Positions 14,346-32,735 of a stretch of DNA of 32,927 bases are shown here, in pieces. The position numbers and the translations under genes were made by a program. The notes beneath the pieces were generated by a model, which was given only the letters and a program-made list of their open reading frames with translations, searched no databases and was not told the origin of the DNA. The stretch covers positions 1 to 32,927 of the forward strand of contig WJIX01000182.1 of the NCBI GenBank assembly GCA_014730075.1, read 5' to 3'. The stretch comes from a bacterium. GTDB lineage: Bacteria > Krumholzibacteriota > Krumholzibacteriia > Krumholzibacteriales > WJIX01. Within the stretch, counting starts at the first letter, position 1, and every line of letters begins with the position of its first letter.

Positions 14346-15974
14346 TTATTTCCCCGCCACCATCGCCTTTACATCCTGGTAGGCGCCGTTGACCGGCCTG
14401 ATGCCAAATTTGTCCACCAGCACCTTTCCCACCCCTGGAGAAAGGAAAGCGGGAAGGGTAGGCCCCAGGCGGATTCCCTTTATCCCAAGAGAAAGCAGGG
14501 CTAGAAGAACCGCTACCGCCTTCTGCTCGTACCAGGCAATATCGAAGGAGATCGGGAGCTCGTTGATATCCACCAGCTGGAATGCCTCCTTCAGCTTCAT
14601 GGCGATGACGGCCAGTGAATAGCTGTCGTTGCACTGCCCTGCGTCAAGCACCCTGGGTATCCCATCTATATCACCCAGGTCCAGCTTGTTGTACCGGTAT
14701 TTGGCACACCCGGCGGTCAGTATTACGGTATTATCGGGTAGTGCACCGGCCACGTCGGTGAAATACTCCCTGGTATCATGGCGCCCGTCGCATCCGGCCA
14801 TAACTATAAAGCGTTTTATCTTGCCTTCCTTTACCGCTTCTACGACTTTACCTGCAAGCTCGGTTACCTGATTATGGGCGAACCCTCCCACTATGGTCCC
14901 TGTCTCAAGCTGTTCGGGCGGATCGCACTTACCGGCCAGTTCAATGATTTCCGAGAAATCCTTCGGGCTGCCGTTTTCACGAGCAGGAATATGCCTAGCT
15001 CCAGGCCAGCCGGCCATCCCGGTGGTGAATATACGGTCAGCGTAGGAATCCTTCACCGGAATGATGCAGTTGGTAGTCATCAGTATTGGTCCGTTGAATT
15101 TTTCGAACTCTTCGTTCTGCTTCCACCATGAGTTGCCGTAATTACCCACGAAATGATCGTACTTCTTGAATGCGGGATAGTAATTAGCCGGGAGCATTTC
15201 GCTGTGGGTGTAAATATCCACTCCGGTCCCCTCAGTCTGTCTTAGCAGCTCCTCCATATCCTTCAGGTCGTGTCCCGATATCAGAATTCCGGGGTTGCCC
15301 CGCACCCCGATATTAACCTCTGTTATCTCCGGGTGGCCGTATGTTTCGGTGTTTGCCCTGTCCAGAAGGGCCATGGTATCAACGGCGGCCTCTCCGGTCC
15401 GCAGGACCAGATTCACCATTTCCTCAACGCCGAGGTCCCTGGTAGTGGAGGCCAGGCCTTCAATCAGAAAATCGTATATCTTCTCATCCTCATACCCCAG
15501 CACTGCCGCGTGATCGGCGTAGGCGGAGATGCCTTTCAGGCCGTAGGTCACAAGCTCCCGAAGTGAGCGTATATCCTCATCCCCAGTTGTGAGTACGCCG
15601 ACACTCTTACCCTTTTCCTCCCATTCCTCCTCCTGGAGGTCCCAGGTTGCCTGGTCGGGAAGGTCCTCTGACGGGCCTGCTTTTTCAGCCAGTTCGTCAC
15701 GGAGCAGGATAGCTTCGCTTATAAGCCCATGGAAACGTTCATTGTCAAAGTTCGCGTTGGTTATGGTTGCGAACAGCGATTCGGCAAGGAACCTCCCTGC
15801 CCTGTTCTTTTCCCCGCCGGCGATATCTGCCTTTTCGGCAAGAAGGGCTATCCCCTTCAGGGTATGAACCAGAAGGTCCTGCAGGTCTGCGGTAACAGCC
15901 TCCTTTCCGCATGCGCCCTTCCTGTATCTGCATCCCTCATTTCTGATTGTTTCCTGACACTGGTAACAGAACAT
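14346..15974 (-). CDS. hcp: Hybrid cluster protein (hydroxylamine reductase / prismane)
   Basis: [43 protein letters not shown]...; hybrid-cluster ligand regions [12 protein letters not shown]-like [87 protein letters not shown]. Confidence 0.97.
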
Positions 15975-16057
15975 ATCTTCCTCCTTCGCAATATATTAAA
16001 AACCTTATCGATGGACTCTCTCAGAGCCCGTTTAACCCGGGCCGGGCCGCGTATTGC

Positions 16058-16873
16058 CTACAGGATATCACCCCCTGTTGATATGACATTAACCCTGACC
16101 ATCCGGCTGACCCCCGAATCACTGAGCGCTTTCTCCACTATTCTTTCGATACCGCCACAGCAGGGGACCTCCATCCTGGCTACCGTTACACTCCTGATAT
16201 TCCTATTTCTGAATATTTCGGTGAGTTTGCGGATATAATCCTCTATCCCCGAATCGAGCTTGGGGCAGAGGGTGATAACCACTCTTCCTTCCATGAAACG
16301 ACGGTGAAAGTCTGCGAAGGCGAAAGGTACGCAGTCTGCCGATATCAGCAGATCGGCGTTCTCCAGGTAAGGGGCGTTAGGGTTGATCAGATGAAGCTGA
16401 ACCGGCCACTGCCTGAGCCGGCTCTGTATCTGCCTGCCTGCAGCCGGTTCCGCTTCGGCTTCCGGCTGGATCGACCTGGCCTCCGAGCCTGGGCAGCCGC
16501 AACGGCATTCCGAGAACTCGATTTCCGGCACCGGGATATCCTTTTCGTACAGTATCGCCAGTGCTTCGCGCAGGTATTCCATTTCGCCGTGGTCGCGCAG
16601 ATGCTCAAGGTGGGCTTTTATCGTTTCCGGCCCTTTCCCAATTATATTCTCCATCACCCGCGCCTCATCGTAAGGTTCAGATTCACGCTCCTCTATACTG
16701 ATTGCTCCCCGCGGACAGTCTCCGATACATGCGCCCAACCCGTCGCAGAACAGATCGCTAATCAGCCTGGCCTTTCCATCAAGTATCTGCAGGGCGCCCT
16801 CGGGGCAGGAGGGGACACACTGTCCGCACCCGTCGCAGAGCTCCTCGTCGATCTCTATTATCTCTCTTTTCAT
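16058..16873 (-). CDS. 4Fe-4S dicluster ferredoxin-domain protein (hcp-associated)
   Basis: DEELCDGCGQCVPSCPEGALQILDGKARLISDLFCDGLGACIGDCPRGAISIEERE gives two CxxCxxCxxxC-type motifs, followed by a C-terminal region with CRCGC and PCCGG. Confidence 0.92.
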   Translation of the reverse strand: MKREIIEIDEELCDGCGQCVPSCPEGALQILDGKARLISDLFCDGLGACIGDCPRGAISIEERESEPYDEARVMENIIGKGPETIKAHLEHLRDHGEMEYLREALAILYEKDIPVPEIEFSECRCGCPGSEARSIQPEAEAEPAAGRQIQSRLRQWPVQLHLINPNAPYLENADLLISADCVPFAFADFHRRFMEGRVVITLCPKLDSGIEDYIRKLTEIFRNRNIRSVTVARMEVPCCGGIERIVEKALSDSGVSRMVRVNVISTGGDIL

Positions 16874-16891
16874 AACTGTGTCTCTCCTCTG

Positions 16892-17296
16892 TCAGCTGCT
16901 GACGAAATCTGAAAGTCTTATATTGCGGTACATTTCGTGGATCTGAGTTGAAATCCTGTGAACCTCGTCCCTGAAAATACATTGATCGAACATGCATTCC
17001 TCTCTATCAAAAGGGCATCCTCCCGGTTTAACCTCCCCGTCTATAATTTCCAGGATATCCAGAAAGGCTATATTCTCCGGTTTCATGTTCAGTTCGAATC
17101 CACCTGAAGGGCCGCGGGTGGAGCTTACCAGACCCGCCGCCGCCAGCTTCTGAAAAACCTTGGCCATATGTGCCCTGGAGCCATCCAGCCTCTCCGCCAG
17201 TTCCTTAACCTTCATCCGCTCGGGGCGGTTACGGGCTATCAGAACCATGGCGTGGAGCGCGAGGGAAGCGCCTTCAGATACTTTTATAAGACTCAT
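16892..17296 (-). CDS. Rrf2 family transcriptional regulator with Fe-S-type cysteine motif
   Basis: MSLIKVSEGASLALHAMVLIARNRPERMKVKELAERLDGSRAHMAKVFQKLAAAGLVSSTRGPSGGFELNMKPENIAFLDILEIIDGEVKPGGCPFDREECMFDQCIFRDEV. Three conserved Cys as in IscR/NsrR types. Track start 17311 is an alternative. Confidence 0.93.
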   Translation of the reverse strand: MSLIKVSEGASLALHAMVLIARNRPERMKVKELAERLDGSRAHMAKVFQKLAAAGLVSSTRGPSGGFELNMKPENIAFLDILEIIDGEVKPGGCPFDREECMFDQCIFRDEVHRISTQIHEMYRNIRLSDFVSS

Positions 17297-17322
17297 CGGA
17301 TCTCCTTTCATATCAATATTAT

Positions 17323-24484: not shown

Positions 24485-25228
24485 TTATCTATACAATCCC
24501 TTTACTGCTCCCCAGCTGCTCTCTTCCGTGTCAACTGCATCTCCGTCACTGGTGAGTGGGCCGATTGAAAAATCGACCGAGGTAACCGACGAGGCATCGA
24601 ATGTATACTTGATGTAATCCACGTCGGTGAAATCAACACCTCCGAATGCGGAAAAGAAGAAACTGTATATACCTTCATTTATCAGGTCGATGGTATGGCT
24701 CGCGGTTGCCTCTTCCGGGGTCCCCCTCCCGCTGGTGACGGTTATGGTGCAGGGAACCGGCCTCGGTCCGGCGTACATATCGCCACTGAGAACGCTAACA
24801 TAAAACATGGTAGCATCGATCACCAGAAAATTGGCGTTGAGGTCGACACTGAGGCCATATTCCAGCTCAAGAACCGCGGAAGCGCCCGCGTTATGATTGA
24901 ACGAAAGCGAATTCCCGGCGGCCCATATTCCGGAGTTGGCGGTACCGGTAACATACTGGATCATCGCGTTTCTCTCTCCTCCAACTACTCCGCTGAGCCC
25001 GGTCTGATAGGCCGAATCGTTAACAAGGTGACTTACCATATTCCCAGGCGGGCACGCTGACCCGTCACAGGTTGTTCCCACGAAAATAATCGGCCTTCCC
25101 GATGCGGGAAGGTCAGGATTCGGAGGAAAAGGATTGGAGAAATCGTCGATAGTCGCTCCCTGAGCCACAGAAAACGAAATCACTAATAGTACCGAAAGGA
25201 CAAACTGATGTTTGAACAGATTTTTCAT
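24485..25228 (-). CDS. Secreted protein of unknown function with C-terminal 'SSWGAVKGLYR' tail
   Basis: Signal peptide MKNLFKHQFVLSVLLVISFSVAQGA; beta-rich body; ends DTEESSWGAVKGLYR. Confidence 0.82.
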   Translation of the reverse strand: MKNLFKHQFVLSVLLVISFSVAQGATIDDFSNPFPPNPDLPASGRPIIFVGTTCDGSACPPGNMVSHLVNDSAYQTGLSGVVGGERNAMIQYVTGTANSGIWAAGNSLSFNHNAGASAVLELEYGLSVDLNANFLVIDATMFYVSVLSGDMYAGPRPVPCTITVTSGRGTPEEATASHTIDLINEGIYSFFFSAFGGVDFTDVDYIKYTFDASSVTSVDFSIGPLTSDGDAVDTEESSWGAVKGLYR

Positions 25229-25279
25229 AAACCCCTCCTACGAGTAAAGCACTGTCCCCGGAAAACTGCAATTTATGGT

Positions 25280-25308
25280 ATTCTAACATATTTCCGTATT
25301 CAGTTCAA
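25280..25308 (-). promoter_or_regulatory. Sigma70-like promoter for the secreted protein gene
   Basis: Minus strand TTGAAC (25303-25308), 17-bp spacer, TAGAAT (25280-25285), about 52 bp upstream of the ATG at 25228. Confidence 0.6.
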
Positions 25309-25408
25309 TCTTTGAATTCTGCCGGATTGAATGGATCATGCCGATAGATTTATTTGGTGCATAATAAGCGGTAATATTGTATTATATCGGGGTAAAGGGG
25401 GATTTAAG

Positions 25409-25861
25409 GTGGCAGCTGACCATACAGAGATACGTGAATATATCAGGGAACTTCTCAGAAAGCAGAGGCTGATGGTTCTGGCCTCAAAGGGGTCGGAGTA
25501 TCCTTACTGCAACCTGGTGGGGTTCGCCTTCACGGAGGACCTGAAATATTTCATCTTCATTACAGGGCGTGACAGCCGTAAGTACAGAAATATCAAGGCC
25601 AACGGCAGGGTTTCACTCCTGCTGGACAACCGGCGAAACAGTGTGGAGGATTTCAGAGAAGCTGCCGCGGTAAGCGTATTCGGAGAGGCGGAGGAAGTTG
25701 AAGGAAAGGAACTTGAAGCTCTGCAGGCGCTATATCTGAAGAGGCATCCCCACCTGAGAGAATTCCTGTTTTCTCCCTATACGGCCCTGTTCAGGGTCAG
25801 AGCAATAAAGTATATCCTGGTGCGGAGATTCCAGGAAGTAGTGGAACTGGATATGGAATAA
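25409..25861 (+). CDS. Pyridoxamine 5'-phosphate oxidase (split-barrel flavin) family protein
   Basis: LLRKQRLMVLASKGSEYPYCNLVGFAFTEDLKYFIFITGRDSRKYRNIKANGRVSLLLDNR...AVSVFGEAEEV...YILVRRFQEV. Preferred start GTG 25409; track start 25331. Confidence 0.82.
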   Translation: MAADHTEIREYIRELLRKQRLMVLASKGSEYPYCNLVGFAFTEDLKYFIFITGRDSRKYRNIKANGRVSLLLDNRRNSVEDFREAAAVSVFGEAEEVEGKELEALQALYLKRHPHLREFLFSPYTALFRVRAIKYILVRRFQEVVELDME

Positions 25862-25908
25862 AGACCTTCGTTGACCCGCTATAGTCAATATGGAAAGGTG
25901 TAATCGGG

Positions 25909-28092
25909 ATGGATCCGATTGTGCTGCCTCTGGGTTCTCCAGAGGCGGGAGACAGCAAACTCTGCGGTAACAAGGCGGCAGCTCTTTCAGTAATGATAGG
26001 CGAGGGGATTTCCGTTCCGGATGGGTTTGTTATTGCCACACCGGCCTACCGGCTTTTCGTTAAGGAAAATGATCTGGAGGGGATAATAGTAATGGAAACT
26101 GCCCGCAAGCCCCTGGATCAGATGCGCTGGGAGGAGATGTGGGATGCTTCGCTTCGGATAAGGAACGGTTTCATGCGCGGCCGGCTCCCCGGAAGGATCG
26201 AGGATGCCCTGAAAAATCAGTTAGGGAGCTGGATGAAGGGAAAGTCTCTGGCGGTGAGGTCATCTTCCCTGCTGGAGGATGCCGCCGGTACTTCCTTTGC
26301 GGGACTGCACGAATCTGTGATTAATGTTAGAAATTTCCAGGATCTTGTCGAAGCGCTGCTGAGTGTGTGGGCATCGCTCTGGTCGGATGCTGTCCTTGCA
26401 TACGCCAGGGAGCTCGAATTGGAAAAGAGTGATGCCGCCATGGCGGTGGTGGTACAGGAGCTGGTGGAGGGAGAGAGCTCCGGAGTGGCCTTTGGAGTTG
26501 ATCCCAGCGGCCGCAGCCGCAGTATCATAGAGGCTGTATTCGGCCTCAACAAGGGTATGGTGGACGGAGATGTACAGCCGGACCGCTGGATATTGGACCG
26601 CCAGAGCGGTGAAGTCCTTTCTATAGAAAGGGCGGAACATGAGAGGCGGGTGATTGCCGGCAGAGAGGGGACAACCTTCGAGAAGCTGGAGGACCAGGAT
26701 AAGGACAGGCTACCTCTTTCGGAGCAGCAGGCAGGAGAAATATTCGGCGCTGTCCGGAAGGTGGAAGATATATTCGGTTCTCCCCAGGATATGGAATGGA
26801 CTATCCGGGATGGTTCTCTCTACCTGCTCCAGTCCCGGCCGGTAACAACGGGGCGTATCGGAGAGGATGGTGACCGCCGGTCATTTGATCTAAGTCTCAG
26901 AAAGAGTTTCAACACCCTCAGTGAAATGTCGGGCCGGATAACAGAAGAGCTTATACCAGGGATGATTTCAGAAGCGGATGAAATATCAGCCACTGATCCT
27001 GCATCCCTGGATGATGGGGAGCTTGCCGGAGAGATAATGGAAAGGAGCCGGCTTTTTAAGAAATGGAAGAATATCTACTGGGATGATTTCATCCCATTCG
27101 CCCACGGAGTCCGGCTGTTCGGCAGGATTTACAATGACCGGGTGAAACCTGATGATCCATACCAGTTCGTGGATTTGCTATCGGCCTCGGAGACACTGAG
27201 TGTCAAACGCAACAGGAAGCTTGTTGAGCTGGCGGGGGAACTGGCAGATAACCCCGATCTTAACATATTGGAGCCGGATCAGAGACACAGCCCTTTCGAT
27301 AAGAAGCTGGAAGAATTTATAAGTGATTACGGAGGGCTTTCCTGTGAGGGAGGAGGTTGCAGGGATGAGAAGAGCGGGCTCCTGTCGCTCCTCCGGGAAT
27401 TAGCCGGGAGTGGGCGTCTGACCGCCGGAGAGGGTGCGAAGAGAAAGAGCAGTAGCGATACTGATCGGCTGGCTGAAAAGTTTCTGGAGAGTTTCCCAGA
27501 AGAGGAGAAGGAGTATGCATCAGAACTGCTTGAGATCGCCAGGGAAAGCTACCGGATCAGGGATGATGACAACATCTATCTGGGAAGATTCGAGAGATCC
27601 CTGAATGAGGTGATGGAAGAGGGAAAGAAACGGCTGGGCAGCAGGTGCGGCGGTTCTGCCGACTGCGAAGACCCTGAAGCCCTGGCTCGGGCTCTTCGGG
27701 ACCCGGATTATACCCTGCCTGAGAAGGAAGCCGGCTCTGAGGAAATTAGAGAAGCCGGTGTGACGGCCCGGCAGCTCAGGGGCCAGCCCGCCGGGAGCGG
27801 GATAGCAAGGGGGACTGCAAGGGTTGCCATCAGGAGTGAAGACCTCTTCGATGTCAGGGAAGGGGAGATTCTGGTATGTGATGCCATAGACCCCAATATG
27901 ACTTTCGTTATCCCCCTGGTCGCGGGGATAGTGGAACGGAGGGGAGGTATGCTGGTTCACGGGGCCATAGTGGCCCGGGAGTACGGGCTTCCCTGCGTAA
28001 CCGGAGTTGCCGACGCGACCAGGGTGATTGATACCGGGGACAGTGTGACAGTTGACGGATATGACGGCCTGGTGATAATACACCGTGATTAA
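25909..28092 (+). CDS. PEP-synthase/rifampin-phosphotransferase-like dikinase (ATP-grasp PPDK_N domain plus C-terminal swivelling His domain)
   Basis: N-terminal GNKAAALSVMIGEGISVPDGFVIATPAY, LAVRSSSLLEDAAGTSFAGLHESVINV, VVVQELVEGESSGVAFGVDP, QDMEWTIRDGSLYLLQSRPVTT; C-terminal GILVCDAIDPNMTF-type region and RRGGMLVHGAIVAREYGLPCVTGVADAT. 727 aa with no PEP/pyruvate TIM barrel after the His domain. Confidence 0.9.
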   Translation: MDPIVLPLGSPEAGDSKLCGNKAAALSVMIGEGISVPDGFVIATPAYRLFVKENDLEGIIVMETARKPLDQMRWEEMWDASLRIRNGFMRGRLPGRIEDALKNQLGSWMKGKSLAVRSSSLLEDAAGTSFAGLHESVINVRNFQDLVEALLSVWASLWSDAVLAYARELELEKSDAAMAVVVQELVEGESSGVAFGVDPSGRSRSIIEAVFGLNKGMVDGDVQPDRWILDRQSGEVLSIERAEHERRVIAGREGTTFEKLEDQDKDRLPLSEQQAGEIFGAVRKVEDIFGSPQDMEWTIRDGSLYLLQSRPVTTGRIGEDGDRRSFDLSLRKSFNTLSEMSGRITEELIPGMISEADEISATDPASLDDGELAGEIMERSRLFKKWKNIYWDDFIPFAHGVRLFGRIYNDRVKPDDPYQFVDLLSASETLSVKRNRKLVELAGELADNPDLNILEPDQRHSPFDKKLEEFISDYGGLSCEGGGCRDEKSGLLSLLRELAGSGRLTAGEGAKRKSSSDTDRLAEKFLESFPEEEKEYASELLEIARESYRIRDDDNIYLGRFERSLNEVMEEGKKRLGSRCGGSADCEDPEALARALRDPDYTLPEKEAGSEEIREAGVTARQLRGQPAGSGIARGTARVAIRSEDLFDVREGEILVCDAIDPNMTFVIPLVAGIVERRGGMLVHGAIVAREYGLPCVTGVADATRVIDTGDSVTVDGYDGLVIIHRD

Positions 28093-28105
28093 GGAGCTGC
28101 CGTAA

Positions 28106-29167
28106 GTGTCTGATTACGTAGAAATTATCAAAGAACTCAGCGGCCTGGGAACGGTACCGGGAAAAGCGGCGGAGAGCTTTTCAAGGGAGTTTCACCGTAT
28201 AGTTCCGGTGGTGGAGCAGACACTTGAGCATGAAGGTATTGATTCCTCTTTCATACGTTCCGGCACTGTTCATTTCGGACGAACCCTGGAGGCGGTATAC
28301 CGGTATTCCCTCTGGGAGGCGCTGGCAGCTGAAGTGAAAGGACTGGCCGGCGGGCTTTCAGCGAGAGGGTCTGAAGACCGCTTTTCCGGGATGCTCAGGG
28401 GTTGGATTATGGGGATAATGAGCGCGGTGGGATCACCGGAGGTTTATCAGCTGGTCCGGCCACTGGAGCTTATCCGTGAAAGAGCAGGCCTGTTTAAATC
28501 CGCGGCTTCCGCGGAAGATAGCCGGGGAGTGGCGGAATATGACAGTTCCTTTACCTCCTCTGTTCTGGCTGGAAGATCGGGCGAGGCCGCAGAAAGGGCG
28601 GTATCCGAGTATCGCCGCGGTGTTTCCCCGGACGATGTTCTGAGCAGGCTGTTCTATCCTTCTCTGGTTGAGATCGGAAGAAGGTGGAGCGAGAATCTGA
28701 TAGGTGTGGCGGAGGAGCATGCGGCTACTTCCACACTCAGGGCGGCGGCCCATAATTTTTTCGATTCTATCTCTGTCGATCAGAGCTACTGCCTGTCCAT
28801 GATGGTGACCTGCGTTCCCGGAGACGAGCATGAGCTGGGGCCGGAAATATTGTCACTCTATCTATCCTCCATGGGCTGGAAAGTGTTCTTTGTGGGGCGC
28901 AGCCTCCCGAGGGGTGACATAATCAGGGAACTTGACCGGGGCGGGTATCAGGTTTCTCTGCTCTCGGTATCATTGGTCCGTCACCTCCCCTCCTTCGAAA
29001 ATCTGGCCGGGGAGATTCGAGGGAGCCATCCGGAAATATTTCTTATTGCCGGGGGCGCGGCGCTTACCTACGGAGAGAGGGTGATGCGGGAGCTCGCCGA
29101 TGAAGTGGCGGAGACACCGCGCCAGGTTCACCGGATCCTTCTGGGACTGGAGAATGCCGATGCGTAG
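28106..29167 (+). CDS. Stand-alone cobalamin-binding protein, CarH/MetH-like B12-binding region
   Basis: Helical cap with RWSENLIGVAEEHAA (W-x9-EH); B12 domain with DEHELG-x41-SVS-x26-GG (DxHxxG...SxS...GG). N-terminal ~150 aa helical region is not a recognisable MerR HTH. Confidence 0.88.
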   Translation: MSDYVEIIKELSGLGTVPGKAAESFSREFHRIVPVVEQTLEHEGIDSSFIRSGTVHFGRTLEAVYRYSLWEALAAEVKGLAGGLSARGSEDRFSGMLRGWIMGIMSAVGSPEVYQLVRPLELIRERAGLFKSAASAEDSRGVAEYDSSFTSSVLAGRSGEAAERAVSEYRRGVSPDDVLSRLFYPSLVEIGRRWSENLIGVAEEHAATSTLRAAAHNFFDSISVDQSYCLSMMVTCVPGDEHELGPEILSLYLSSMGWKVFFVGRSLPRGDIIRELDRGGYQVSLLSVSLVRHLPSFENLAGEIRGSHPEIFLIAGGAALTYGERVMRELADEVAETPRQVHRILLGLENADA

Positions 29168-30281
29168 GACAGCCGCCTTCAAGATGCTTTTTCATGACCG
29201 GGCCGCGGCGATCGGTTCCATATCGGGGGTGATAGCGATTATTTTCCTGGTGGGACAGCAGCTGACAATTTTCTTCGGGCTTCTGACCTTTATGTCAAGT
29301 GTGGTTGATATCAGCGGGGCTGATATCTGGGTCCTGTCAGAGAATGCAGATAACGCGAATTCCTCCGGTACAGTCCCCGCCAGCTATCGCGACCGTATTA
29401 TAGGTGTGGAGGGAGTGGACCTGGTAGAGCCGCTGATTCTTGGAGGGGGGCTGATCCGCAGGGATAACGGAAATTACCAGGCTATCCAGATAATAGGGGT
29501 AAAGCGGCCCCATCTCCTGGGCGGGCCTAACCGCTTTCACCGGGGATCGATAGGGGACATTCTGGATTACGAAGGAGTCACCGTGGAATACCTTGAGCTG
29601 GGAACGCTGGATAATCCCGATATCGGTTCCCTCTTCGAAATAAATGAAGAGCGGGTGAGGGTTAGGGCCATAACCAGGGGTGTCAGGGGATTCAGCGGCA
29701 ACATGGTATTCACCAACCTGGAGAAAGCCCGTAAGCTTACCGGCATTCCACCCGACCGGTACAGTTCCCTGCTGGTCACGGTGCGGGATCACTCCCGGAT
29801 TGAATACATGATCAGGCTTCTCAGAACGGTCCTTCCCCGCGCGGATATCTACTCCAGCGATGAACTGTCACGAATGACCAAGCTTTATTACCTCAAGAAC
29901 ACCGGTATCGGGGGAAGTTTCGGATTCTCCACACTGATGGGAGCACTGGTAGGGGTAGTTATAATAGCCCTGACCATGTATACCAATGTGATGAATAAGA
30001 AAAGAGATTACGCCATGCTGAGGGCCCTGGGGGGCAGAAAAAAGGATGTACTCTATATTATATTCATTCAGACCATCTATATTGCATTCATAGGTATTCT
30101 GATCGGATTTACTCTGCTCAGTCTGTTCCTGCTCGGCACCAGGGATTCCAACCTTCCCAGCTATATGCCCTGGTGGGCGCCGCCCATTCATGCCCTGTTT
30201 ACGTTTATCCTCTGCCTCTTCGGATCGATAATAGCGATGAGGAGGGCGGTCAGCATTGAACCCGCAACGGTGTTCAGATAG
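29160..30281 (+). CDS. ABC transporter permease, MacB/DevC (FtsX-like) family
   Basis: ATG overlaps the upstream stop (ATGCGTAG); N-terminal TM, large periplasmic domain (GADIWVLSE...), C-terminal TMs with MNKKRDYAMLRALGGRKKDVLYIIFIQTIYIAFIGILIGF and AVSIEPATVFR. Confidence 0.9.
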   Translation: MRRTAAFKMLFHDRAAAIGSISGVIAIIFLVGQQLTIFFGLLTFMSSVVDISGADIWVLSENADNANSSGTVPASYRDRIIGVEGVDLVEPLILGGGLIRRDNGNYQAIQIIGVKRPHLLGGPNRFHRGSIGDILDYEGVTVEYLELGTLDNPDIGSLFEINEERVRVRAITRGVRGFSGNMVFTNLEKARKLTGIPPDRYSSLLVTVRDHSRIEYMIRLLRTVLPRADIYSSDELSRMTKLYYLKNTGIGGSFGFSTLMGALVGVVIIALTMYTNVMNKKRDYAMLRALGGRKKDVLYIIFIQTIYIAFIGILIGFTLLSLFLLGTRDSNLPSYMPWWAPPIHALFTFILCLFGSIIAMRRAVSIEPATVFR

Positions 30282-30298
30282 TACCGGGAGATATTGAT

Positions 30299-31027
30299 AT
30301 GACCGATAGCGGTAACGGAAATAATAGTCCGGTAATAGCCCTCAGGGGGATAGCCCGCGATTTTTACGACGGAAAACAGCGGAGGAGAGTTCTGTCCGAC
30401 ATAGATACCGCATTCTACCGGGGAGAGTTTACCATTATATCGGGCCCTTCCGGCAGCGGGAAGACCACTCTGCTTACCATAATGGCCCTGATCCTGAGGC
30501 CTACCGAGGGAACCGTGATCCTTCTGGGTAACGAGATAACTGATGCCAGCGAGAATGTCCTGGCCACTTACCGTTACAAACATTACGGATTCGTTTTTCA
30601 GAACGCGGCACTGATACCGGCCCTGACAGTCAATGAGAATATCCTTCTGGCTTCTGCGGTGCAGGGAGCGAGGATCCCCCGGGCATTGCGGATGAAGGCG
30701 ACCGGGATAATAGAGAAGCTGGGGCTCTCTGAATTCGCCAACACCAGGGCTGAACGCCTGTCCGGGGGGCAGAAGCAGAGAGTGGCGATAGGCCGGGCTC
30801 TTATCAACGACCCGGTAATGGTACTTTGTGACGAGCCCACTTCGGCGCTGGATGTTAAGAGCAGTGAACTGGTACTTCAGACACTCAAGGACCTGGCCAG
30901 GGAGGATAGGGCTATCGTGCTGGTAACGCATGATCCAAGGGTGTTTCCGTATGCGGACCGGCTGATACAGATAGAGGATGGAAGAATAAGGACCGATACG
31001 GGGGTCTCGCAGAAGAGTAATTTATGA
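30299..31027 (+). CDS. ABC transporter ATP-binding protein (MacB/LolD family)
   Basis: Walker A GPSGSGKTT, Q-loop FVFQNAALIPALTVNEN, signature LSGGQKQRVAIGRALINDP, Walker B VMVLCDEPTSALD, H-loop VTHDPR. Confidence 0.97.
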   Translation: MTDSGNGNNSPVIALRGIARDFYDGKQRRRVLSDIDTAFYRGEFTIISGPSGSGKTTLLTIMALILRPTEGTVILLGNEITDASENVLATYRYKHYGFVFQNAALIPALTVNENILLASAVQGARIPRALRMKATGIIEKLGLSEFANTRAERLSGGQKQRVAIGRALINDPVMVLCDEPTSALDVKSSELVLQTLKDLAREDRAIVLVTHDPRVFPYADRLIQIEDGRIRTDTGVSQKSNL

Positions 31028-31091
31028 AGAGAGTTGGTTTGAGACTGATTTTTTCAGGAAGAATAGAACCGGCAAAGGCAGGGATAAAGAA

Positions 31092-31973
31092 ATGAAGAGA
31101 GCAGTTATATATACCGTACTGATAGCAGTGATAATATTTCTGATTGGGTTCAATGTGATAACGGTCCGGAGAGTTTCAAGAAGACCGGGACCAGTAGAGC
31201 CGCCGGTATTGAACGAATACCCGGCTCGGATTTACGGGGTGGTGGAGCCCTCCGGCAAGGAGATAGAGGTGAGCCCGATGGAGCCGGGGGTAGTGGATGA
31301 AATTCATATCCGGGAGGGTGATACGGTGAAAGCGGGAGAGCTTCTATGTTCCCTGGAGAGTTCGGTCCGTTTGGCCAGGCTGGAAGCGGCACGTTCCAGA
31401 GTAGCAGTGGGGAGGAAGGCGGCGGAACTCAGCCGGGACCGTTATCTCAGAAACCGGGAGCTGCTGGAGGACGGTTCGATCTCCGAATCACAGTATACCG
31501 AGCTTAAACTGGAGAAGGAGCTGGACCAGCGCAGGCTGGATCTGTACGGCAGGGAACTGGAGCTGGCAAGGGCCGAACTGGAGAACCTGGAGGTTCCCTC
31601 CCCCGCCGACGGTATTGTGTATCTATGTGATATCAGAGAAGGGGAATACTTCAGTTCGGAAGGCGACCCCGGGATAATTCTGGGGCCGGTTGACCTGCAG
31701 ATCCGCTGTGATATCGAGGTGATATGGATCGGACGCCTGGCTCAGGACCGTACTTACCGGGTTCTCAACGCAGAGACGGCTGAGCCGGTGGGTACCGCTG
31801 TTTACCGGGGCTCATCAAGGTATCTGCGGTCGAAGAGGTTTTCCACCGAAGATCCCGCCAAACGGCTTTCCGCCCGCTACCAGGAAGTAATCATGGATTT
31901 TGTTCCGGAAAGAAAGGGTATCCCGATACGCCTTCCGGTGATGGTAGAGCTGCCGCCGGCATCCGGAGAATAA
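31092..31973 (+). CDS. HlyD/RND-type periplasmic adaptor protein
   Basis: N-terminal TM VIYTVLIAVIIFLIGFNVITV; biotinyl-lipoyl halves GVVEPSGKEIEVSPMEPGVVDEIHIREGDTVKAGELLCSLESS and LEVPSPADGIVYLCDIREGEYF flanking a coiled coil. Confidence 0.93.
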   Translation: MKRAVIYTVLIAVIIFLIGFNVITVRRVSRRPGPVEPPVLNEYPARIYGVVEPSGKEIEVSPMEPGVVDEIHIREGDTVKAGELLCSLESSVRLARLEAARSRVAVGRKAAELSRDRYLRNRELLEDGSISESQYTELKLEKELDQRRLDLYGRELELARAELENLEVPSPADGIVYLCDIREGEYFSSEGDPGIILGPVDLQIRCDIEVIWIGRLAQDRTYRVLNAETAEPVGTAVYRGSSRYLRSKRFSTEDPAKRLSARYQEVIMDFVPERKGIPIRLPVMVELPPASGE

Positions 31974-32042
31974 TTTGTCCGGCGGCGCCTGAGATTCTCC
32001 TGATGGCCAGGGGGGCGAGGTCAGCTTCCGGCTCAGGGCAGT

Positions 32043-32627
32043 TCAGAACCATCCCAGCTGATCCAGTTCCCTGATACTCTCTCGCAGTTCATCATGCAGA
32101 TCCTGAAGCTCATCTGCCTCTTCCTCGATCTCTCCGGCACGCCTCTCCAGTTTTTCAGCCTTCTTCTCTATATCCTTTTCCATCCGGTCCATCTCTTTTT
32201 CCAGCTTTTCCATCCCGTCATCATCGGAGAGATCCGCCAGTGCTTTTCCCAGCGCCTTGATCGCTATCCTGACTCCGTCGGCCCCTACCCGGGCCCCTTC
32301 CAACCCTATCTCACGGGCTTCTTCCATCACCTTCTCGAACTGACTGTAATACGCCCGGACCAGCCTGCGGTCGGATCTTTTCAGGGGTATATTCTTACCC
32401 TCGATAAAGAGTTCATATTTATCAGTTATTTCTACCTTTTCACCTGAATCCCTCTCCCTGAAAATAATGGAATCTTCGTCGAATTCGAGATCGACATTCT
32501 TCCCCCTGGTGAGATTATCACCATCGATTTCATCACATATCCTGTCGTCCAGAAACCCTGCTTCGGCTTCCTGCGCCGGAGCGGCAATAAGGGTTGCCAA
32601 TCCCAGCAGAATGATAAATGCTCTCAT
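32043..32627 (-). CDS. Secreted coiled-coil protein, DUF2884/YggN-like
   Basis: Signal peptide MRAFIILLGLATLIAAPAQEAEA; KVEITDKYELFIEGKNIPLKRSDRRLVRAYYSQFEKVMEEAREIGLEGARVGADGVRIAIKAL; C-terminal charged coiled coil. Confidence 0.7.
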   Translation of the reverse strand: MRAFIILLGLATLIAAPAQEAEAGFLDDRICDEIDGDNLTRGKNVDLEFDEDSIIFRERDSGEKVEITDKYELFIEGKNIPLKRSDRRLVRAYYSQFEKVMEEAREIGLEGARVGADGVRIAIKALGKALADLSDDDGMEKLEKEMDRMEKDIEKKAEKLERRAGEIEEEADELQDLHDELRESIRELDQLGWF

Positions 32628-32735
32628 CTGAACCTCCCGGTCAGAGATAATGATTTAATTATCCTTCACCGGTATCTACGTACCTGGGCGGCGGCAGGTT
32701 TCATGGTGATGCTGAAATTTTATATTTCGGAGATT

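Follow-up and report, generated by a model that had tools for sequence, protein, structure and literature searches.

Five plus-strand ORFs lie in close succession at positions 25909-31973 of the window, the whole 32,927 nt stretch of DNA that was analysed. ORF calling showed all five to be real and confirmed their strand and spacings. They encode a dikinase of 727 aa (25909-28092), a B12 protein of 353 aa with a GTG start (28106-29167), a permease of 373 aa (29160-30281), an ATPase of 242 aa (30299-31027) and an adaptor of 293 aa (31092-31973). The genes are separated by a 13 nt gap, an 8-nt overlap and gaps of 17 and 64 nt. A longer permease ORF would start at the ATG at 29100, which is within the B12 gene; eight other complete permeases were aligned and all start at the ATG corresponding to 29160. 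An earlier sequence-only reading had described five tightly spaced genes on one strand, and its ORFs, strand and gaps were all reproduced. Its domain assignments agreed with Pfam and curated models, the HlyD/RND-adaptor matches being weak. It had overlooked a sixth gene, PNPOx-like, located 47 nt upstream of the dikinase. An internal terminator would have counted against its proposal, and a sequence scan found no terminator-like site on the plus strand inside the run. Promoter-like matches on both strands numbered 11 compared to 4.9 expected, which is not evidence of function.

The PNPOx-like split-barrel protein (PF01243, Pfam E 2.9e-17) is encoded at 25409-25861 on the plus strand. The ORF opens at 25331 but the gene probably starts at the GTG at 25409, where homologues begin. 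A PNPOx-like gene was directly upstream of the dikinase in 79/79 assessable loci of relatives, in both bacteria and archaea, and is the constant partner of the dikinase. The pair is a widespread unit present in methanogens, relatives of sulfate reducers and others. No study of it was found in a literature search carried out mostly without subscription papers. The dikinase has an RPH fold with an ATP-grasp domain, a helical middle domain and a His-swivel domain, and it lacks a PEP-binding domain. Its Pfam matches were PF01326 (PPDK_N) and PF00391 (PEP-utilizers) only. The AlphaFold model had a pLDDT of 84 and its best fold match was rifampin phosphotransferase 5hv1 (E 2.6e-35). The predicted phospho-carrier His684 (27958-27960, plus strand) lies in ERRGGMLVHGA and was invariant in 45 aligned homologues. 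With ATP-grasp, helical acceptor and His-swivel domains in one chain, the protein has the make-up of an RPH-type small-molecule dikinase. PEP synthase or PPDK was ruled out as its identity because the protein ends after the His domain, without a C-terminal PEP/pyruvate-binding domain, and matches the RPH fold. Nothing beyond the fold supports a role in rifampin resistance. A metal site formed by Cys pairs was also rejected: the close clade of the window has the pairs, L089 has an incomplete set, and they are missing from wider relatives, L159 for instance.

The B12 protein is a stand-alone cobalamin-domain protein in which approximately 145 N-terminal residues are followed by CarH-type B12-binding_2 and B12-binding domains (Pfam). 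No DNA-binding domain was recognisable with Pfam or NCBIfam. The nearest curated model was CarH (NF052513), matched over residues 160-327 only with 63 of 400 bits, below the cut-off. The protein has neither the MerR-type HTH nor the CarH score of the CarH/LitR transcription regulators. Its nearest solved relatives are CarH and the SasPcob-type cobalamin proteins, with AerR among them though distant, and SasPcob-type structures were the best PDB match of the B12 family profile. Photocobilins combine a cobalamin domain with a globin-like bilin-binding domain; of these, the cobalamin domain is present here. The N-domain had no Pfam, NCBIfam or PDB match by sequence, and its AlphaFold model was unusable (pLDDT about 30). 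Proteins with the same N-domain and cobalamin layout overlap kinase genes in L012 and L016 and a GGDEF gene in Ilyobacter.

The green-light AdoCbl signature consists of GxxW, EH, GxxH and GxxxP (PMC11796333). The window protein contains these as Gly191-Trp194 (28676-28687), Glu204-His205 (28715-28720), Gly239-His242 (28820-28831) and Gly264-Pro268 (28895-28909), all on the plus strand, with His242 as the predicted lower axial cobalt ligand. The CarH-type B12 domain named by the earlier reading carries a complete AdoCbl light signature. All four motifs were also present in G252, G196 and G569, and three in G471. Of 12 readable relatives, eight, all in one subclade, have lost the axial His together with most signature residues, so the unit as a whole does not depend on cobalamin. 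Cys236 is invariant in the family.

The remaining genes encode the parts of an exporter, all on the plus strand. The permease is a DevC/MacB-type FtsX-family protein (PF02687, E 4.8e-15). Hydropathy alone placed four MacB-like hydrophobic segments near residues 24-42, 254-272, 308-326 and 342-360, consistent with a four-helix topology in which a large periplasmic domain separates the first two helices. The DevA/MacB-type ABC ATPase (PF00005, E 3.7e-32) has an intact Walker A motif GPSGSGKT, LSGGQ and a His-loop THD; DEP was seen by eye after Walker B. The HlyD/MacA-type periplasmic adaptor (TIGR01730, E 4.6e-22, below the cut-off) has one N-terminal hydrophobic helix. The spacing R-x3-L-x6-S, which we take to be that of the RLS motif, was applied to adaptor residues 120-131. 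These residues, RNRELLEDGSIS (31449-31484), form an RLS-like motif, the pattern for docking to TolC, in the adaptor hairpin, the RLS motif of adaptors having been described previously (PMC4446572). The pattern, with Ser or Thr last, was present in 7/8 orthologous adaptors aligned with that of the window. Curated DevABC cut-offs were not reached, with 69 of 290 bits for DevC (TIGR01185), 206 of 296 for DevA (TIGR02982, the best curated model for the ATPase) and 33.5 of 129 for DevB (TIGR02971). No TolC-family gene lies within the operon; TolC-family (PF02321) matches over the cut-off were found on several contigs of the same genome.

The B12 protein, permease, ATPase and HlyD adaptor genes were found as a four-gene unit in 13 other genomes from two phyla, with the B12 gene directly before the permease in 13/13. 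Close permease relatives (44-51% identical) were all preceded by a B12 gene, and the permeases of the unit form one clade at 100/100. The overlap between the permease start and the B12 stop is ATGCGTAG (8 nt, 29160-29167, plus strand). It was identical in 9/12 orthologous junctions read, while a tenth was GTGCGTAG. Chance adjacency of the B12 gene and the transporter was ruled out by the recurrence across genomes, the common overlap and the single permease clade. A genome-collection scan with the window B12 protein gave no match, as the family is too divergent, and it was a permease profile that found the family. Searches of the phylum of the window with the B12 protein and the permease gave partial or distant matches only, and there was no close B12-linked permease in the draw from the Phycisphaerales phylum. 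No transcription factor was a recurrent neighbour when the neighbourhoods of orthologous units were compared. Light genes did not adjoin most units. By eye, the L198 unit was an exception, with CrtI-like, lipocalin-like and DUF1499-like neighbours. A literature search, again mostly without subscription papers, turned up no account of an ABC exporter paired with a cobalamin sensor; co-encoding of a B12 light-sensor-type protein with an envelope exporter is a pairing that we have not found described.

The sequence-only reading had tentatively joined all five genes in a single system in which the dikinase, B12 sensor and exporter phosphorylate and export a small molecule under light or B12 control. 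Its B12 protein and exporter part stood, as those four genes are conserved and translationally coupled across the 13 other genomes, but the dikinase was not upheld as a member. Neighbourhood tests rejected a five-gene unit and showed two conserved gene sets instead, joined only in this genome. Homologues were generally unlinked, an outcome which that reading had named as contrary to it. A B12-type transporter was beside the dikinase in 0/50 dikinase genomes, two of which carry both gene sets on different contigs. The nearest orthologous dikinase loci (66, 52 and 48% identity) had no B12, ABC or HlyD genes, and no dikinase was present in the 11 orthologous sensor-exporter neighbourhoods fetched. 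A cobalamin-domain protein was near the dikinase in L159 only, at a distance of approximately 4 kb and with a kinase after it. In favour of a single system are the tight same-strand spacing, the lack of a plus-strand terminator, and the occurrence of both gene sets in 4/395 genomes compared to 0.9 expected, a figure that ignores relatedness. In addition, L089 and L122 have another DevC-type transporter close to the dikinase, sharing 25-28% identity with that of the window, with relatives of it in G435 and G295. Set against the absence of linkage and the constant PNPOx partner of the dikinase, these leave a single system very improbable, and coupling of phosphorylation to export had no comparative support. 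The two modules lie head to tail and probably share one transcript.

A photolyase gene was found in 12/80 dikinase loci compared to 0.18 expected, and relatives of the dikinase-PNPOx pair sit among photolyase, DPRP, SDR-DUF2867, CMAS and amine-oxidase genes. As relatives of module 1 (25409-28092) occur in these photolyase islands, the two modules may be parts of a single response to light or photo-oxidative stress here. A shared light or photo-oxidative theme is plausible without the modules acting on each other. The position of the pair in such islands makes the substrate of the dikinase a concrete question.

The reading we favour, with roughly even confidence, is that two independently conserved modules are joined here and that module 2 (28106-31973) is a tripartite MacB/DevBCA-type exporter with its own cobalamin-domain sensor subunit. 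In module 1 the dikinase would pass phosphate from ATP via His684 to a small molecule. In module 2 the sensor would bind adenosylcobalamin. Light, or loss of AdoCbl, would break the Co-C bond and change the shape or oligomeric state of the sensor. The sensor would contact the cytoplasmic face of the permease/ATPase and raise or lower the ATP cycle, which would drive a periplasmic cargo out through a TolC-type duct. Where the cobalamin ligand has been lost, as in the one subclade, the sensor subunit would answer another input. Export of cargo is predicted from the gene products, and light gating of that export is what we infer. The stronger proposal, that an AdoCbl photoreceptor is a dedicated subunit directly gating a trans-envelope ABC exporter by light and that lineages which lost cobalamin retained it to respond to a different signal, with the subunit otherwise conserved, is put forward only tentatively and may well not hold.

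The B12 protein could instead control transcription of the operon and not exporter activity, in the manner of the antirepressor AerR, with a separate DNA-binding protein as its target. AerR, a cobalamin photoreceptor that stands alone, exerts its effect via the transcription factor CrtJ (PMC6199135). The solved relatives of the B12 protein include AerR, albeit as a distant one, and genes for sensors frequently lie with those for their targets. The absence of both a DNA-binding domain in the protein and a recurrent transcription factor near the units speaks against this, and a start/stop overlap conserved between the B12 and permease genes is more in keeping with a stoichiometric partner than with a regulator; we regard transcriptional control as possible but rather unlikely. 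Less probable still is a carrier role, with the protein passing a corrinoid or some other tetrapyrrole such as heme to the exporter, so that the system would serve tetrapyrrole export or traffic and not light sensing. Folds of the B12 type are able to bind heme, a weak AppA_SCHIC match (E 0.12) was obtained for one member, and loss of the axial His in many members while Cys236 is invariant makes a different ligand possible. However, MacB-type machines act on periplasmic cargo and pass no substrate across the inner membrane (PMC5985334), and in four members the AdoCbl light signature is complete, with the residues capping the adenosyl group included. The best reading is a tripartite exporter with a dedicated CarH-type sensor subunit, probably co-transcribed with an RPH-fold phosphotransferase pair. 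If the sensor controls the exporter, light or coenzyme B12 status would act post-translationally on envelope transport. In the cited literature, cobalamin photoreceptors have DNA binding, repressors or c-di-GMP enzymes as their targets. The complete, near-complete and lost signatures would offer a natural series in which to study how a photoreceptor turns into a light-blind regulator.

The window dikinase shares the ATP-grasp domain, helical acceptor domain and His swivel with RPH/HpeHI-type small-molecule dikinases. It differs in its constant PNPOx partner, in reaching just 256 of 999 bits with the rifampin phosphotransferase model NF041857, well short of the RPH family cut-off, and in having an invariant Glu676 where the consensus T/SxxGGxxxH has Thr/Ser (PMC12167813). 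The light-inducible Pseudomonas phrB/SDR/FAD-oxidoreductase/ufaM/cryB cluster resembles the island genes around the dikinase-PNPOx relatives, but none of those genes are near the window genes, and the dikinase and PNPOx are not named among the cluster members in the available part of the source (PMC9758184). The two B12 domains and all four AdoCbl motifs of CarH/LitR are common to the window B12 protein, which has a different N-terminal domain and no MerR-type DNA-binding domain. The signature loss in one subclade is comparable to class II LitR, which no longer needs B12 (PMC9758184). SasPcob and AerR also have a cobalamin domain without a DNA-binding domain, whereas the partner in the window is an exporter, neither a repressor nor a diguanylate cyclase. 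Stand-alone photocobilins exert control over an enzyme through protein contact (PMC10979010); their globin domains, like all other solved chains, have no sequence similarity to the window N-domain. The exporter resembles DevBCA and MacAB-TolC (MacB-type, type VII ABC exporters) in its four-segment FtsX-type permease, separate MacB/DevA-type ATPase, HlyD/MacA-type adaptor with an RLS-like motif and TolC-family proteins encoded elsewhere in the genome. It differs from them in falling below the DevA, DevB and DevC cut-offs and in its obligate cobalamin-domain protein co-encoded with the permease, a component found in no description of those systems.

Five consecutive ORFs on the plus strand of the window encode a dikinase (25909-28092), a B12 protein (28106-29167), a permease (29160-30281), an ATPase (30299-31027) and an HlyD adaptor (31092-31973). 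These ORFs, their strand and their spacings match the sequence-only reading exactly, and the protein classes it named were borne out by domain scans. The best permease start is the ATG at 29160, common to the other complete permeases in the alignment, and with it the B12 and permease genes overlap by 8 nt. A sixth gene had been overlooked. It encodes a PNPOx-like split-barrel protein (25409-25861, plus strand) and ends 47 nt upstream of the dikinase. No plus strand terminator-like site was found in 25200-32700, which makes a single transcript for the run plausible. Elsewhere in the window (14346-17311, minus strand), genes for a hybrid-cluster (prismane) protein, a 4Fe-4S protein and an Rrf2 regulator are consecutive and look like the ordinary nitrosative/oxidative stress set of an anaerobe.

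The sequence-only reading had proposed that the dikinase and the B12-linked exporter form one five-gene system. The B12-exporter unit is real and conserved, but the dikinase belongs to a different, strongly conserved pair that this reading had halved. The neighbourhood check went against a joint system, with a B12-linked permease in 2 of 50 dikinase genomes, both times on another contig. Both gene sets were carried by 4 of 395 genomes against 0.9 expected (P 0.008, ignoring relatedness), again on different contigs. In all four the dikinase 3' flank or the B12 gene 5' flank was long enough to exclude the window arrangement. No dikinase was present in the 11 sensor-exporter neighbourhoods fetched. 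As far as sampled, only the window lineage has the two modules joined. Another kind of DevC-type permease/ATPase/HlyD set, lacking a B12 gene, was seen approximately 1-10 kb from the PNPOx-dikinase pair at loci L089 and L122 and in genomes G435 and G295 (L089:4624-7605, L122:6509-11650, L207 and L208). At L122 this set lies between a MipA-family gene directly upstream and a TolC-like gene downstream.

The exporter unit was searched for with a profile built from three permeases, that of the window and two relatives. Close permease relatives were found in 12 of 395 genomes of the phylum of locus L132 (titled Desulfobacterales), one of them (G365) seemingly frameshifted, and all 12 had a B12-protein homologue directly upstream. 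The phylum of L122 (titled Acidobacteria) contributed a thirteenth B12-linked permease, and the phylum of L124 (titled Phycisphaerales) yielded no close one. More distant permeases of this general type, retrieved by these searches, had no B12 gene upstream. The 11 usable close permeases and that of the window formed one clade (support 100/100). Identity to the window was 44-51% for the permease, 50-61% for the ATPase, 26-39% for the adaptor and 26-30% for the B12 protein. The shared 8 nt ATGCGTAG, comprising the B12 stop and the permease start, occurred in the window and at 9 of the 12 junctions read; GTGCGTAG was present at the tenth and the remaining two differed. No published description of the unit was found in the literature searched. 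The orthologous units (L197, L198, L199, L201, L202) often adjoin an upstream cyclophilin-like gene and a gene for a SurA-like peptidyl-prolyl isomerase, both assigned by eye from clusters that recur.

The B12 protein consists of approximately 145 N-terminal residues, with no recognisable relatives, followed by a CarH-type cobalamin domain. The green-light signature of adenosylcobalamin (AdoCbl) proteins is GxxW, EH, GxxH and GxxxP (PMC11796333). All four motifs are complete in the window protein and in genomes G252, G196 and G569. In G471, QH replaces EH and the other three motifs are kept, and eight further relatives have lost the axial His (His242 in the window, the predicted lower cobalt ligand) and most of the rest of the signature. 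Since complete forms lie outside the lineage with losses on the permease tree, where some forks are weakly supported and the root is uncertain, the simplest reading is that the signature would have been lost inside one subclade. Such a loss parallels LitR class II proteins, which do not need B12 (PMC9758184). Cys236 (28811-28813) lies six residues ahead of the axial His. It is kept in every aligned member, even where that His is missing, and could be a site for another ligand.

The sensor layout also occurs away from exporters. Proteins that combine a similar N-domain with a cobalamin domain overlap a PAS/histidine-kinase-like gene (kinase assigned by eye) in two genomes from the same class as the window, and on an Ilyobacter polytropus plasmid such a protein overlaps a GGDEF gene (L012:251-2739, L016:2-2496, L227:6848-8891). 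This suggests that the layout is a portable trans-acting sensor. Stand-alone photocobilins reportedly regulate a diguanylate cyclase via protein contact (PMC10979010). Because the layout recurs at kinase and GGDEF genes and photocobilins act by contact, it is reasonable to infer that the B12 protein would serve the exporter as a sensor subunit acting in trans. Light gating of the exporter is a possible reading, and the most interesting one compatible with the data.

An orthologous dikinase was present in only 3 of 79 other genomes of the window's phylum (66, 52 and 48% identity). All three loci had the PNPOx gene directly upstream and no B12, ABC or HlyD gene nearby. A four-sequence alignment was scanned against one-genome-per-species contigs and the best 80 of 290 loci were kept. 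Hosts included Desulfobacterota-type MAGs, Methanosarcina, Methanolobus and related archaea, Phycisphaerae, Synergistales and Armatimonadetes. A PNPOx gene immediately preceded the dikinase in 79 of these best 80 loci, and the 80th starts at the locus edge. The two genes mostly overlap or are less than approximately 50 nt apart, with some archaeal gaps of up to approximately 200 nt. In the nearest relative (G001) a divergent TspO/MBR gene (L082:10931-11380) lies just upstream of the pair. TspO proteins bind porphyrins.

The genes flanking the pair are not random. When all ORFs of the best 80 of 290 loci were clustered, the flanks contained DUF523+DUF1722 (16 loci), SDR-DUF2867 (15), DNA photolyase (12), CMAS and peroxiredoxin (9 each), DPRP photolyase-like, SOUL and FAD amine oxidase (8 each), DUF1295 (7) and UvdE (5) genes. 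The 12 photolyase loci compare with 0.18 expected at the genome-wide rate, an expectation if anything inflated, as the rate came from 20 genomes chosen among the dikinase loci, several for a nearby photolyase. Islands with photolyase, DPRP, UvdE and others occur also in strict anaerobes (L085-L164). The flank set is similar to the light-inducible phrB/SDR/FAD-oxidoreductase/ufaM/cryB cluster of Pseudomonas (PMC9758184).

The window dikinase has ATP-grasp and His-swivel domains; no PEP-binding domain was found by domain scan. Its AlphaFold model (pLDDT 84) best matched rifampin phosphotransferase (RPH) 5hv1 (E 2.6e-35), and it scored below the curated cut-off for RPH proper (256 of 999 bits). 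The His684 loop is ERRGGMLxHGA with an invariant Glu, whereas the consensus in PMC12167813 has Thr/Ser at this position. By analogy with RPH and HpeHI, the dikinase would be expected to use ATP-to-AMP chemistry to phosphorylate a small molecule.

The window exporter proteins did not reach the curated DevA, DevB and DevC cut-offs. Permease hydropathy gave four segments, a pattern in common with MacB/DevC, and the ATPase motifs are present. The adaptor has a single N-terminal helix and an R-x3-L-x6-S pattern resembling the RLS motif linked to docking on TolC-like proteins, several of whose family are encoded elsewhere in the genome. In MacB-type machines, work in the periplasm is powered by ATP consumed in the cytosol (PMC5985334). 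Together, these features support an exporter that would work like MacAB/DevBCA.
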